From IMG/VR virus record IMGVR_UViG_3300005915_000037, positions 1 through 44,866 of that record: a stretch of 44,866 nucleotides of DNA, one strand, 5' to 3'. The position numbers were made by a program, and so were the translations under genes. Shown here one piece after another: positions 24,775 through 32,097 of this stretch. The notes under the pieces were generated by a model, which was not told the origin of the DNA, searched no databases, and saw nothing but the letters and a program-made list of their open reading frames with translations. The stretch comes from a virus. Positions within the stretch are counted from its first letter, which is position 1, and the number at the start of each line of letters is the position of its first letter.

Positions 24775-25101
24775 ATGGGACAAGCACACCTTCCCGGCAT
24801 GGACAAAGACTCCACAGACCCGCTTGAGCGCAAATTCTTCGCGTTTCACGCAGCGCATCCGGAGGTCTACGCAGGCATTGTGAAAGAGGCGCTGAGACTC
24901 AAGGACCGCGGTGTATTGAAGTGCGGAGTGCGGCTGCCATACGAGCTAGTGCGCGTGCTGCGCGGCGCACAGTGCCACATGCCAAATGTTTACTGCCCGC
25001 TGTATGCCAGATTGATTATGAGAGACGAGCCACGGCTTAAGGAATGGTTTATCGTTTGCCGGCGGCGCAATGTCGCTGCTGGCTCTGTATTGGGTGACTG
25101 A
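24775..25101 (+). CDS. Conserved phage hypothetical protein
   Basis: A 108-residue protein with leader GGCAAGCAA directly before ATG 24775; a second in-frame ATG follows at 24799. The pattern FFAFHAAHPEVYAGIVKEAL, then RLPYELVRVLRGA and YCPLYARLIMRDEPRLKEWF recalls a widespread small phage protein of unknown function (an FxxFHxxNPxVY motif followed by a Tyr-Ala-Arg region), usually found near replication and recombination genes. All-helical, no catalytic motif. Start choice does not alter the conserved part. Confidence 0.65.
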   Translation: MGQAHLPGMDKDSTDPLERKFFAFHAAHPEVYAGIVKEALRLKDRGVLKCGVRLPYELVRVLRGAQCHMPNVYCPLYARLIMRDEPRLKEWFIVCRRRNVAAGSVLGD

Positions 25102-25120
25102 ACGAACAAGGGACAAGCAA

Positions 25121-26590
25121 ATGACAACAACGAAAGACATACTCAAGGAAGCGGCGGCGCAAGCCGCGCAGAAGGCTCAGGCCGACGTGCCTGAAGCCGG
25201 AGAATCGGGGCTCAGGGTTACGGAGCTTCATGTCAGTAATTTCATGAAGATCAACACTGTCGATATTCATCTGGACCGCAACCTAGTGCAAATCTGTGGC
25301 AAGAACAAGGAAGGAAAAACGAGCCTCGGAAACGCGATGTGGTTCTTGATTTCTGGCGCGCGGGGCTACAACCAAACCAAAGAGAGCCCGTGTAAGCGAG
25401 GGACCGAGCAAACAGTCTTGGAGGGTCGGCTCGGAGATCCAGATCAGCCAAGCGATGATGATCTGATTGTTCGACGTGTGATGACCAAGACAAGCCATGA
25501 GCTTACAGTCCGATCCGTGGATGGGAACACTGCCTACAAGAGACCACAGGACGTGCTTGATGCGCTGAGCACGCGGTCGGCATTTGACCCGACGCGTATT
25601 GTTACGATGGCCGACGCCAAGGTCATGGAGGAGCTGTTGAGCCTGACGGGGCGCAGTGATGAAATCAAGGCGCTGGAGCAAGCGTACGACATGACGTTCG
25701 CAAAGCGGACCGCGATCAACGTGGAGAAGAAGAAACTGGACGGGGCGATCAGCGAACTACCGCAAGAGACCGGCGATGTACCATCGCGGATAGACGTGGC
25801 CGACACGCTGCGTGTCATGGAGGAGATGGAGGAAAAGATTGCACAATCAGACCAGGCCGAAGAAGACGCGCGTGTCGCGAGCGATGCCATCGAGCAGAAG
25901 ACCCTTTCAATCGGCTATCACAGGAAACAGATTAAAGATCACAATGACAAGATTGCGGCACTCCTCGAACAGAACGAATCCCTCACGAAAGAGGTCAAGG
26001 AAATACAGAGCTATGTCTTGGGAGAGGACGTGCGAGGCGATCTCAAAGAGAAGGCGCGCGGATTGCGCGGGGACATCAAGAGCGCGGAAGCAACAAACGA
26101 ACGCGCTGCGAATCATGCGCGACGCGAAGCGATGCTCGATGAGGCCCAAAGGAAGGGCAACGAATCCGAGATATGCACGCAAGATCTGGAGGACATCAAG
26201 AAACAGAGGGCTGTGATAGTCGCGGACTCAGAGCTTCCCGATGCGCTGGAGTTCGACTTCGATGCGGGGTTCTGTAGGTACAACGGATCGCCGTTCTCCG
26301 AGTGCTCAGACTCGGAGAAGATCTTGCTCACCGTGCCGATTCTGATCGCGAAGAACCACGCGTTCAAAGCCATGTGGATTCAACGCGCCAACCTACTGGA
26401 CTCCGAATCTCTCCTAGCCATTCAAGACATGGCCTACGCTGCGGACTTGCAGCTTGTTCTGGAGATTGTGGACGAATCCGGGGATGTCGGGATCGTTATG
26501 CAGGACGGGGCTGTAGTGGCAATCGACGGCAAGCATGTTGAACCACAGACAATCATTGCTTCGAAGCAAGCAAAGAAGGGCCGCAAGTAA
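25121..26590 (+). CDS. SMC/Rad50/SbcC-like ATPase
   Basis: I chose ATG 25121 behind GGGACAAGC; upstream open frame lies within the previous gene. The 489-residue product has an N-terminal strand pattern (LRVTELHVSNFMKINTVDIH) and a P-loop GKNKEGKTSLGNAMWF (residues ~60-75). A long coiled coil follows (~200-370, EEMEEKIAQSDQAEEDAR and others). The C-terminal half-domain has ECSDSEKILLTVPILIA in place of the ABC signature and VDESGDVGIVMQDG near the end. This is the common phage version of SbcC/Rad50: a DNA-end or recombination ATPase that usually pairs with a nuclease, none of which I see next to it. TAATG couples it to the SSB gene. Confidence 0.82.
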   Translation: MTTTKDILKEAAAQAAQKAQADVPEAGESGLRVTELHVSNFMKINTVDIHLDRNLVQICGKNKEGKTSLGNAMWFLISGARGYNQTKESPCKRGTEQTVLEGRLGDPDQPSDDDLIVRRVMTKTSHELTVRSVDGNTAYKRPQDVLDALSTRSAFDPTRIVTMADAKVMEELLSLTGRSDEIKALEQAYDMTFAKRTAINVEKKKLDGAISELPQETGDVPSRIDVADTLRVMEEMEEKIAQSDQAEEDARVASDAIEQKTLSIGYHRKQIKDHNDKIAALLEQNESLTKEVKEIQSYVLGEDVRGDLKEKARGLRGDIKSAEATNERAANHARREAMLDEAQRKGNESEICTQDLEDIKKQRAVIVADSELPDALEFDFDAGFCRYNGSPFSECSDSEKILLTVPILIAKNHAFKAMWIQRANLLDSESLLAIQDMAYAADLQLVLEIVDESGDVGIVMQDGAVVAIDGKHVEPQTIIASKQAKKGRK

Positions 26591-29783: not shown

Positions 29784-29835
29784 ATAGGTCATGAGCCGGA
29801 CGCAAGAGCCGGACACTACGGAAAGGGTAGACAAT

Positions 29836-30567
29836 ATGAAGGTCGAGAAGGCTATCGCACTGCTTCGTGAGTACGAACCTGAGGATGGTTACTACGGCTG
29901 TTTTTCGGGAGGCAAGGACTCCGTTGTGATCAAGGCGTTGGCAGACATGGGCGGAATCAAGGCAGACTGGCATTACAACGCCACAGGTATAGACCCACCA
30001 GAGTTGACAAGGTTTATCCGCCAGCACCACCCAGATGTGGAGTTTGTGCGCCCGAAGCGGTCCTTCTTCGAGAGCTTTCCTAAGAGGGGATTTCCTACAC
30101 GCAAGCAGCGCTGGTGCTGTGCCGCACTCAAAGAACACAGTTATCCGCGAGATGGCCGGTCAATGCTCATGGGGATCCGCGCCGAGGAATCGGGGCGCAG
30201 AGCACGCGACTGGGATGAGGTGTCGGCACACTGGAAAAGTGGAGGACTGGTGCTCAACCCCATCTTCCATTGGACACAGGTGGGGGTGTGGGAGTTTATC
30301 CGCGACAACAGCGCTCCATATTGCTCTCTCTACGACGAGGGCTTTGATCGCCTGGGATGTATAGGATGCCCTCAGGCCCGAAAGGCCGGACGCGACGCAC
30401 AGTTTGTGCGGTGGCCGGGACATAAACGCGCATGGGCTAGTGCATTCCGCAGGTTGTGGAGCTCTCGCCCTGACGATTGGAGTATGAAAATGCGCTTCGA
30501 CTCTTGGGAAGAGATGTGGGAGTGGTGGTTGTCCAACAGAAGTCTACCAAAGAGGAGAGACAAATAA
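29836..30567 (+). CDS. PAPS-reductase/DndC-like PP-loop protein
   Basis: I prefer ATG 29836 (AAAGGG upstream) over ATG 29791. The 243-residue product has the PP-loop FSGGKDSVVIKAL at residues ~23-34, which binds ATP for adenylation in the PAPS reductase/ATP-pyrophosphatase superfamily, and the Cys pairs RWCCAALKEH and GCIGCPQARKAGR that can hold an iron-sulfur cluster. Phages often carry such proteins; substrates are unproved. Relatives include sulfate-assimilation PAPS reductases, DndC (DNA phosphorothioation) and tRNA sulfur enzymes. The C-terminal ~60 residues are Trp/Arg-rich. The next genes are the ATPase stub and a cytosine methyltransferase, so nucleic-acid modification is an attractive but unproved role. 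Confidence 0.82.
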   Translation: MKVEKAIALLREYEPEDGYYGCFSGGKDSVVIKALADMGGIKADWHYNATGIDPPELTRFIRQHHPDVEFVRPKRSFFESFPKRGFPTRKQRWCCAALKEHSYPRDGRSMLMGIRAEESGRRARDWDEVSAHWKSGGLVLNPIFHWTQVGVWEFIRDNSAPYCSLYDEGFDRLGCIGCPQARKAGRDAQFVRWPGHKRAWASAFRRLWSSRPDDWSMKMRFDSWEEMWEWWLSNRSLPKRRDK

Positions 30568-30629
30568 TGCAGGTCTTGAAACTGACAGCCCACAACGTGA
30601 AACGGGTCAATATTAAGGAGAATAAATGA
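30567..30629 (+). pseudogene. 20-residue stub resembling the N terminus of a Rad50-like ATPase
   Basis: ATG 30567 overlaps the PP-loop protein stop (TAATG) and encodes only MQVLKLTAHNVKRVNIKENK before TGA at 30627. The pattern LxLTAxNVKRxxxxE is how many phage Rad50/SbcC-like ATPases begin. The methyltransferase ATG overlaps the stop (ATGA), so a truncated gene with intact coupling now acts as a leader. It may be a remnant of a larger ATPase deleted when the methyltransferase arrived, or merely a coupling peptide. Confidence 0.5.
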
Positions 30630-31765
30630 ATGGCTTGGCTTTATGTGCAGGAATTGGCGGGCTCGAACTCGGGATCAGCCTCGCCCTCGGGGACGGATAT
30701 CGAACTGTGGGTTACGTCGAGCGGGAAGCCTACGCAGCGGCTGCTCTCGTGGCGCGGATGGAAGATTCGGCCATGGATAGCGCGCCTATCTGGGACGATA
30801 TCAAAACCTTCGACGGCAGACCGTGGCGCGGCTTGGTGGATATCGTCTCTGGCGGCTACCCATGCCAGCCCTTCAGTGTCGCCGGTCGCCGACGCGGCGC
30901 AGATGATCCGAGACACCTGTGGCCCGACGTTCGACGCATTGTGTCAGAGGTACAGCCAGGACTCTGTTTCTTCGAGAACGTCGCAAACCACATTAGACTG
31001 GGCTTTGAAGAGGTCAGAGCCGACTTACGAGGAATGGGTTACCGGGTTGAAGCAGGACTGTTTAGCGCGGCTGAAGTGGGTGCGCCTCACCTCCGCAAGC
31101 GACTGTTCATCCTTGCCTACCGCGACGGCGCACTGTGCGAAGGCGGACGGACCATCACAGGCGGACAGGCACACACCAGGACTACAGAGTGCGGCGAGCA
31201 CTTGGCCAACCCCCCGAGCCAGCGCCAACGAGAACAGGACCACGAGGAACGCACCGAGCCACGGGAACGGACACGGCAAGACACTGGCGGGGGAGGCGGC
31301 ACAGTGGATGACCCCGAACTGGCCGAACGGCGGTCGCAGTGTGTCAGCGGAAGTGGTAGCAGCAAAGGGTGCGACGGCAACGGGCAAGCGGACGGTGGGG
31401 CTGGAGTCCCAAGCGAAGCACTGGCCCACCCCGATGAGCGCAGACGGCTACAAGCTGAGCGCGGGCAAGCGGAAGGACTCGGACCTTTCCCACCAGGTCC
31501 AAGAGATAAAGGTGCATGGGCCGAAGTCCTTAGCCGTAACGCATGGGTTGCCCCTTCTCTACCGTCTGCTGCTGAGCTTACCCGAATGGCAGCCGAAGCT
31601 GGCGCGGATGCTGAACCCGAATTTCGTCGAGTGGCTGATGGGCTGGCCTATCGGGTGGACCGCCTTCGAGGCTGTGGCAACGGAGTACACCCAATCGTGG
31701 CGGCAAAAGCAGCATGCTGTTTTATTGCACGTGCTGAAGCACGAAACAGAGAGGCCACCAAATGA
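30626..31765 (+). CDS. dcm-like: C5-cytosine DNA methyltransferase
   Basis: A 379-residue protein behind AAGGAG. The C5-methyltransferase motifs are in order: LCAGIGGLELG (motif I, residues 6-16), GGYPCQPFSVAG (motif IV, catalytic Cys80), FENVANH (motif VI, ~116-122), GAPHLRKRLFILA (motif VIII), and near the end FRRVADGLAYRVDRLRGCGN leading to GVHP (motifs IX-X). It methylates cytosine at a sequence set by the variable region (~170-330), probably shielding phage DNA. Nearly its full length is overlapped in the +1 frame by another long ORF (30630-31769). The variable region is Gly/Arg/Asp-rich and unusual, as expected for constrained dual coding. Confidence 0.92.
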   Translation: MNGLALCAGIGGLELGISLALGDGYRTVGYVEREAYAAAALVARMEDSAMDSAPIWDDIKTFDGRPWRGLVDIVSGGYPCQPFSVAGRRRGADDPRHLWPDVRRIVSEVQPGLCFFENVANHIRLGFEEVRADLRGMGYRVEAGLFSAAEVGAPHLRKRLFILAYRDGALCEGGRTITGGQAHTRTTECGEHLANPPSQRQREQDHEERTEPRERTRQDTGGGGGTVDDPELAERRSQCVSGSGSSKGCDGNGQADGGAGVPSEALAHPDERRRLQAERGQAEGLGPFPPGPRDKGAWAEVLSRNAWVAPSLPSAAELTRMAAEAGADAEPEFRRVADGLAYRVDRLRGCGNGVHPIVAAKAACCFIARAEARNREATK

Positions 31766-31769
31766 ATGA
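30630..31769 (+). CDS. Overlapping +1-frame protein with WPTP and GWPIGWT motifs
   Basis: Open over 379 codons in the +1 frame of the methyltransferase. The part from about ATG 30903 (MIRDTCGPTFDALCQRYS) carries motifs I recognise from a phage protein family: SSLPTATA, STWPTPRASANENRTT, HWPTPMSADGYK and NPNFVEWLMGWPIGWT (about nt 31617-31664). Homologues are usually found with or overlapping C5 methyltransferases; biochemical role is unknown to me. The first ~90 codons (from 30630) lack these motifs and may be only an open frame, so 30903 could be the true start. The same DNA near 31620-31700 encodes conserved residues in both frames. Confidence 0.62.
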   Translation: MAWLYVQELAGSNSGSASPSGTDIELWVTSSGKPTQRLLSWRGWKIRPWIARLSGTISKPSTADRGAAWWISSLAATHASPSVSPVADAAQMIRDTCGPTFDALCQRYSQDSVSSRTSQTTLDWALKRSEPTYEEWVTGLKQDCLARLKWVRLTSASDCSSLPTATAHCAKADGPSQADRHTPGLQSAASTWPTPRASANENRTTRNAPSHGNGHGKTLAGEAAQWMTPNWPNGGRSVSAEVVAAKGATATGKRTVGLESQAKHWPTPMSADGYKLSAGKRKDSDLSHQVQEIKVHGPKSLAVTHGLPLLYRLLLSLPEWQPKLARMLNPNFVEWLMGWPIGWTAFEAVATEYTQSWRQKQHAVLLHVLKHETERPPNE

Positions 31770-32097
31770 CACCACACCACACTCGAACGCCTGGCGCGGC
31801 GAGGTGAGATCGGAGACCGACGGCAACATCGAGGCGCGGGTAGACCCGGACGACGCGGGCCGCCGCTGGTTTGTGGATGTGATGCACCGAGCCCCAGACG
31901 AGGTCTATACGATCTATATGGCCAACCGGGATACGCGGGACGAGGCGGTCGCGCTGGATTACGCGCAGACCTGCGTGGAGGAGAATATGCGGCCAGCAGA
32001 GTCACGGGTCAAGGGGCTTGGTCCACTGAAAGCGCCAAGCCGGTATGTTGCATCTAAGGTCATAGCGGCGGCAAAACGTGGAGGATTAAGGTTATGA
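31762..32097 (+). CDS. Hypothetical protein
   Basis: A 111-residue protein whose ATG overlaps the stops of both methyltransferase-region frames. The first ~45 residues are acidic and beta-like (WRGEVRSETDGNIEARVDPD), followed by helices (DEAVALDYAQTCVEENMRPA) and a basic end. No family is recognised. ATGA links it to the zinc-finger protein. Confidence 0.62.
   Translation: MNDTTPHSNAWRGEVRSETDGNIEARVDPDDAGRRWFVDVMHRAPDEVYTIYMANRDTRDEAVALDYAQTCVEENMRPAESRVKGLGPLKAPSRYVASKVIAAAKRGGLRL

Follow-up and report, generated by a model that had tools for sequence, protein, structure and literature searches.

Two reading frames at one phage locus

The DNA analysed here, the window, is the 44.9-kb (44,866-nucleotide) record of a tailed phage, with terminase and tail genes on it. 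Two open reading frames lie almost exactly on top of each other on its plus strand, at 30626–31765 and 30630–31769, as had been claimed in an earlier note that described two 379-codon frames starting four bases apart. The features of the locus are as follows.

30615–30620, plus strand: Shine-Dalgarno-like AAGGAG, read directly from the sequence; function presumed
30626–30632, plus strand: ATGAATG, overlapping starts of frame 1 (ATG at 30626) and frame 2 (ATG at 30630)
30626–31765, plus strand: frame 1 (alpha), C5-cytosine DNA methyltransferase of 379 aa with motifs I–VIII and X and without IX (profile matches and structural model)
30630–31769, plus strand: frame 2 (beta), +1-frame ORF of 379 aa with the WPTP-repeat region and putative motif IX (phrog_1008 match, +1 phase, selection tests)
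30638–31117, plus strand: catalytic half of frame 1 (motif positions; pLDDT >90 across most of residues 1–170)
30638–30673, plus strand: frame-1 motif I
30851–30886, plus strand: frame-1 motif IV (PCQ)
30968–30991, plus strand: frame-1 motif VI (ENV)
31079–31117, plus strand: frame-1 motif VIII
31110–31448, plus strand: frame-2 WPTP-like repeats (31110–31130, 31200–31238, 31302–31337 and 31419–31448), probable target-recognition region
31611–31661, plus strand: putative frame-2 motif IX, LNPNFVEWLMGWPIGWT (single-chain relatives; fixed −14 nt register)
31613–31666, plus strand: the same bases in frame 1, read as EPEFRRVADGLAYRVDRL
31673–31711, plus strand: frame-1 motif X, CGNGVHPIVAAKA, plus the C-terminal helix (motif positions; helix pLDDT 85–95, aligned to the M.HhaI C-terminus)

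Both signatures that the earlier note had seen in the same bases, EPEFRRVADGLAYRVDRL followed by GNGVHP in frame 1 and LNPNFVEWLMGWPIGWT in frame 2, are present, and so are the WPTP-like repeats of frame 2, at 31110, 31200, 31302 and 31419. The independent profile searches that it had proposed gave different families for the two frames. Frame 1 matched Pfam DNA_methylase (PF00145, E 4e-30), with an alignment confined to residues 2–171, and phrog_363 (E 2e-58), and frame 2, searched alone, matched phrog_1008 (E 2e-19), phrog_27243 (3e-10) and phrog_26627 (4e-8). The similarities of frame 2 to Pfam Peptidase_S8 (18.4 bits, below the cut-off) and to the MS2 coat protein (E 0.003) were treated as chance.

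The structural model of frame 1 has a catalytic domain (residues 1–173) and a C-terminal helix with motif X, both confident, and between them a disordered linker. It superposes on M.HhaI with a Z score of 20.9 and an rmsd of 3.4 over 208 aligned residues, residues 1–377 being placed on 12–327. The stretch of frame 1 under the WPTP repeats is linker, with pLDDT <50 and weak constraint, and there frame 2 dominates selection. The AlphaFold model of frame 2 was poor (pLDDT 49), too low for a structure search.

The AAGGAG lies 5 nt ahead of the frame-1 ATG and 9 nt ahead of the frame-2 ATG. Given that ATGAATG stands behind this single element, the sequence suggests that both frames are expressed from one messenger. 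The spacing is conserved: both starts could be located in 186 loci, and in 148 of these frame 1 begins exactly 4 nt ahead of frame 2. At the opposite end, ATGAATGA (31762–31769) terminates both frames, with TGA at 31763–31765 and at 31767–31769, and also holds the ATG of the next ORF (31762–32097). This arrangement mirrors the 5' ATGAATG, and translational coupling with the next ORF is possible. Immediately upstream of the dual gene lies a gene with a PAPS-reductase domain (29791–30567; PF01507, E 9e-24), and a PAPS reductase family gene is also found near the dual gene of Acidovorax phage Alfacinha3 (L001). The phage genome further encodes a 506-aa AAA_23/AAA_15 ATPase-like protein (25070–26590).

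Conservation and selection in both frames

The earlier note had held that dual coding would be contradicted by a lack of homologues of the second ORF translated on its own, or by relatives with stops in the second frame and an intact methyltransferase. Translated alone, frame 2 has 218 relatives in viral contigs, and its alignment search returned 318 in bacterial genomes, the best 80 of which belong mostly to Rhodobacterales and other Alphaproteobacteria. Identity in frame 2 among relatives is about 30–44%, with gaps. BLAST of frame 2 against named phages gave one record only at 1e-5; the relatives came from profile and contig searches, which were needed beyond BLAST. Frame 2 occupies the +1 phase in 266 of 266 related loci, a set that is partly redundant because some contigs recur between fetches, with a median overlap of 398 codons. 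The register of the two signatures is constant, at −14 nt, in all loci matched by both regular expressions. A search by frame 1 only, which involves no selection for frame 2, retrieved loci L088–L114, all with frame 2 in +1 and each scoring above its own shuffle maximum.

Among named phages, both frames are open and exceed the shuffle control in Salmonella phage epsilon15, Escherichia phage K1ind2, Paenibacillus phage Jacopo, Acinetobacter phage ABMM1, Pseudomonas phage PS-1, Synechococcus phage Ssp-JY39 and Acidovorax phage Alfacinha3. Gordonia phage JKSyngboy, whose partial +1 frame scored 40.5 bits, below its shuffle maximum of 54.7, was not counted as dual-coded. In epsilon15 (L002), a 348-codon open +1 frame with a phrog_1008 match lies unannotated inside the annotated DNA methyltransferase (1843–2886). 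In Escherichia coli 914033 (L393), the PGAP annotation splits the methyltransferase into two incomplete pseudogene pieces, which may reflect either true decay or the overlapping frames themselves. The genome of Paracoccus onchidii (G010, source of L149) carries several methyltransferases whose Pfam match is of the partial sort characteristic of this type, which suggests multiple prophages carrying different versions. At the level of sequence, the dual-frame architecture was found in the same register across hundreds of phages and prophages, and it is widespread and mostly unannotated. The earlier description of such dual coding as rare does not hold within this enzyme family, where every close relative examined has it.

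A long second frame could be a mere shadow, kept open by base composition or by conservation of frame 1. GC-rich DNA may indeed leave long alternative frames open, and the canonical enzyme L286 has a +2 frame of 402 codons. However, every one of 5000 synonymous-codon shuffles that preserved the frame-1 protein brought at least 1 stop into frame 2, with a mean of 6.7. In all 81 loci tested, frame 2 was stop-free and resembled that of the window more closely than any of 100 synonymous shuffles did; the reverse test, comparing frame 1 with shuffles that keep frame 2, also held in 81 of 81. In 20 bacterial genomes, 14 canonical C5-methyltransferases had 9–32 stops in +1 and no frame-2 match, as opposed to the 16 methyltransferases of the window's type, whose +1 frames were open and scored 356–395 bits.

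Selection on each frame was estimated with our own OLGenie-like count rather than the published OLGenie program. For frame 2, dNN/dNS was 0.37 [0.33–0.41] in the C-terminal half and 0.51 [0.43–0.60] over the catalytic half, compared with control values of 0.98 [0.88–1.10] in canonical methyltransferases and 0.70 [0.62–0.82] in neighbouring ORFs. The C-terminal ratio is the strong selection result; the value over the catalytic half is only moderately informative, since neighbouring ORFs give 0.70 and not 1. For frame 1, dNN/dSN rose from 0.17 in the catalytic half to 0.65 in the C-terminal one. Taken together, these values indicate that frame 1 is dominant in the first half and frame 2 in the second. 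Pairs with poorly aligning C-terminal halves (e.g. L059/L072, L048/L060 and L068/L084) gave ratios of about 1 and are uninformative. The per-frame check that had been proposed earlier was thus carried out, and it revealed that both frames are under more purifying selection than the shadow effect accounts for, as expected of a functional same-strand overlapping gene pair.

Loci with one broken frame provide a further view. About a dozen loci have a broken frame 1 together with an intact frame 2 (L012, L015, L017, L028, L042, L045, L064, L089, L142, L169, L194 and L196; L234 duplicates L142), and the converse, frame 2 broken with frame 1 intact, occurs in 1 of 266 (L133, a single stop), a comparison that is biased, most loci having been chosen by frame 2. 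In the pair L012 and L015, frame 1 has more than 10 stops past the catalytic half; in this region the differences between them fall 12, 4 and 62 on frame-2 codon positions 1, 2 and 3, and their frame-2 proteins are 95% identical. Over the catalytic half, with its unbroken frame 1, the corresponding counts are 2, 11 and 3. Where frame 1 is broken, frame 2 of these loci evolves like an ordinary gene. We count the shadow explanation as refuted by this codon-position result, with the shuffles, the per-frame selection, the frame-1-broken loci and the closed +1 frames of canonical enzymes on the same side, and leave it practically no probability.

Equally negligible is constraint at the nucleotide level, by which an RNA structure or regulatory DNA would preserve both frames. 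It would account for their being conserved at once, but the substitutions track the codon position of the dominant frame, those between L012 and L015 being concentrated in frame-2 third positions; the relatives are only about 30–44% identical in frame 2 and gapped, and Rfam gave no match at the locus. Given the constant phase, conservation beyond the frame-1 shadow, per-frame selection, the frame-1-broken loci and the closed +1 controls, genuine dual coding over about 1.1 kb is strongly supported and, judged from sequence, almost certain. The earlier view of the overlap as real rather than as shadow composition is borne out.

Frame 2 and the motif absent from frame 1

The methyltransferases of this type lack motif IX. 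An LTPRECARLxGFP-like motif IX was sought in frame 1 of 16 loci of the window's type, without a match, and its position reads RVADGLAYRVDRL. In 74 of 80 actinophage-type loci, exemplified by L115, the frame-2 signature is found inside the frame-1 chain, in nearly all cases followed by motif X. L325 is one 381-residue chain that matches phrog_363 (E 4e-69) over residues 28–377 and phrog_1008 (E 1e-54) over 161–378, with LLPTP repeats in-frame. A third arrangement is seen in L281, L391 and L392, where frame 1 has the catalytic motifs only and frame 2 carries LPTP-type repeats, IX and X. Canonical enzymes were also aligned with the C-terminus of frame 2 by an unconstrained profile comparison, which landed exactly on the RxLTPRECARLMGF columns, albeit non-significantly (E 0.13). 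The signature LNPxFVEWLMGxPxGW of frame 2 is probably the missing motif IX of the methyltransferase, and an unrelated protein in frame 2 is improbable.

It might nevertheless be argued that an unrelated product, such as an anti-restriction or regulatory protein, was overprinted on the methyltransferase and kept for its own function. Frame 2 belongs to a distinct PHROG, has its own conserved start, is constrained (0.51) even where it overlaps the catalytic half, and found no significant relative among the solved structures searched with it. This reading is unlikely, as the C-terminal signature of frame 2 is the in-frame motif IX of the single-chain methyltransferases, and frame 2 is always paired with this methyltransferase type, the one without motif IX. 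Less likely still is programmed ribosomal frameshifting that fuses frame 1 to frame 2 into a single-chain enzyme. The single-chain relatives L115 and L325 make the joined order I–VIII, WPTP, IX a natural one; however, with motif X again in frame 1, two shifts in opposite directions would be required, and frame 2 is open back to its own conserved start codon, 4 nt from that of frame 1.

The WPTP region is plausibly the target-recognition part, judging from its place after motif VIII and before IX, from the way it dominates selection and from the single-chain relative. Frame 2 most likely carries both this region and motif IX, and the frame-1 residues beneath it are mostly a predicted-disordered linker under weak constraint, running on to motif X. 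The earlier suggestion that the second frame would constrain the target region of the methyltransferase is refined accordingly: frame 2 most likely carries that region itself. A more tentative alternative, which we consider possible though doubtful, is that the N-terminal ~160 residues of frame 2, encoded by the bases of the catalytic motifs, form a further conserved domain and that the WPTP units, variable in number, are modular recognition elements; the overlap would in that case allow phages to change specificity in one frame with the catalytic half fixed in the other.

Our preferred reading, to which we give a probability of roughly 0.8, is that the locus is one gene that encodes, in two frames, a two-subunit cytosine-5 DNA methyltransferase. 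It builds on two frames that are both conserved and under purifying selection, on the partition of the motifs between them, and on the single-chain and otherwise split relatives; from these we infer that both frames are translated and their products assemble, that beta recognises the target, and what the enzyme does for the phage. Alpha, from frame 1, would provide the AdoMet-binding and catalytic motifs I–VIII and motif X, with a flexible linker in between. Beta, from frame 2, would provide the piece missing from alpha, namely the WPTP-repeat region for probable DNA target recognition and motif IX. Ribosomes directed by one Shine-Dalgarno element may start at either of the two start codons, 4 nt apart, and make both subunits from the same mRNA. 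The active enzyme would then form from alpha and beta, its probable role being to methylate the phage DNA against host restriction.

One set of loci is not predicted by a strict alpha/beta model: frame 1 is cut before motif X in L012, L028, L042, L045, L142, L169 and L194. Stops break frame 1 of L012, L015, L017 and L196 after the catalytic part, where frame 2 has its repeats, but the motif X stretch is open in frame 1. The enzyme of these four loci may come in three pieces, or their alpha subunit may be decaying.

Relation to known cytosine methyltransferases

If the two-subunit reading is true, a large part of the cytosine methyltransferases of phages and prophages are annotated as one protein while needing two. 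The second subunit would be absent from many records (e.g. epsilon15 and Alfacinha3) or entered as a separate 'DNA methyltransferase' (K1ind2 and Jacopo), and frame 1 cloned alone could yield an inactive enzyme. The locus would also represent an unusually long, old and well-sampled overlapping pair, in which the two frames are complementary parts of one enzyme. Because relatives exist with motifs moved between frames, the origin and loss of the overlap are directly traceable. We found no account of this overlap in phages in the literature searched, which took in few of the subscription papers.

Frames 1 and 2 match the phage 'DNA methyltransferase' families PHROG 363 and PHROG 1008, respectively, whose labels are silent on their being overlapping frames of one locus or complementary enzyme parts. 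With M.HhaI and other single-chain C5-methyltransferases, the window's enzyme shares the catalytic domain and motif X, but the frame-1 chain has neither motif IX nor a folded target-recognition domain, and motifs I–X do not occur in one chain. M.AquI (CYCGRG) is a two-polypeptide C5-methyltransferase with the catalytic motifs in one chain and IX in another (PMC3404938). The window shares this separation of the catalytic motifs from IX; the AquI pattern, with IX and X together in the second polypeptide, does not occur in it, X being in frame 1, and is seen, in overlapping frames, in L281, L391 and L392.

The closest likeness is to M.EcoHK31I. Lee, Kam and Shaw reportedly described in 1995 that the gene for its large polypeptide also encodes, in an alternate frame, the small one, said to be of 176 aa, and that the enzyme is active only with both. 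In this enzyme (YGGCCR), the large polypeptide carries motifs I–VIII and X and the small one motif IX, and the predicted TRD is placed in the large subunit, not the small one (PMC3404938). Compared by description of motifs, the partition is the same in the window. Its large chain has I–VIII and X and lacks IX, the Pfam alignment stopping at residue 171; IX falls to the second polypeptide according to the single-chain relatives, the direct profile comparison (E 0.13) being suggestive; and the second polypeptide lies in an alternate frame inside the first gene, +1 in all 266 loci. On the other hand, frame 2 of the window is as long as frame 1 (379 aa), overlaps it nearly end to end from a paired start, and has WPTP repeats, and the target region seems to lie in frame 2, not frame 1. 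The window's enzyme is also phage-borne, with no restriction enzyme recognised among the few neighbouring genes examined. A two-frame arrangement of this kind, known but rarely described, was reported earlier for a bacterial restriction-modification enzyme; the locus here is a phage-borne variant of it.
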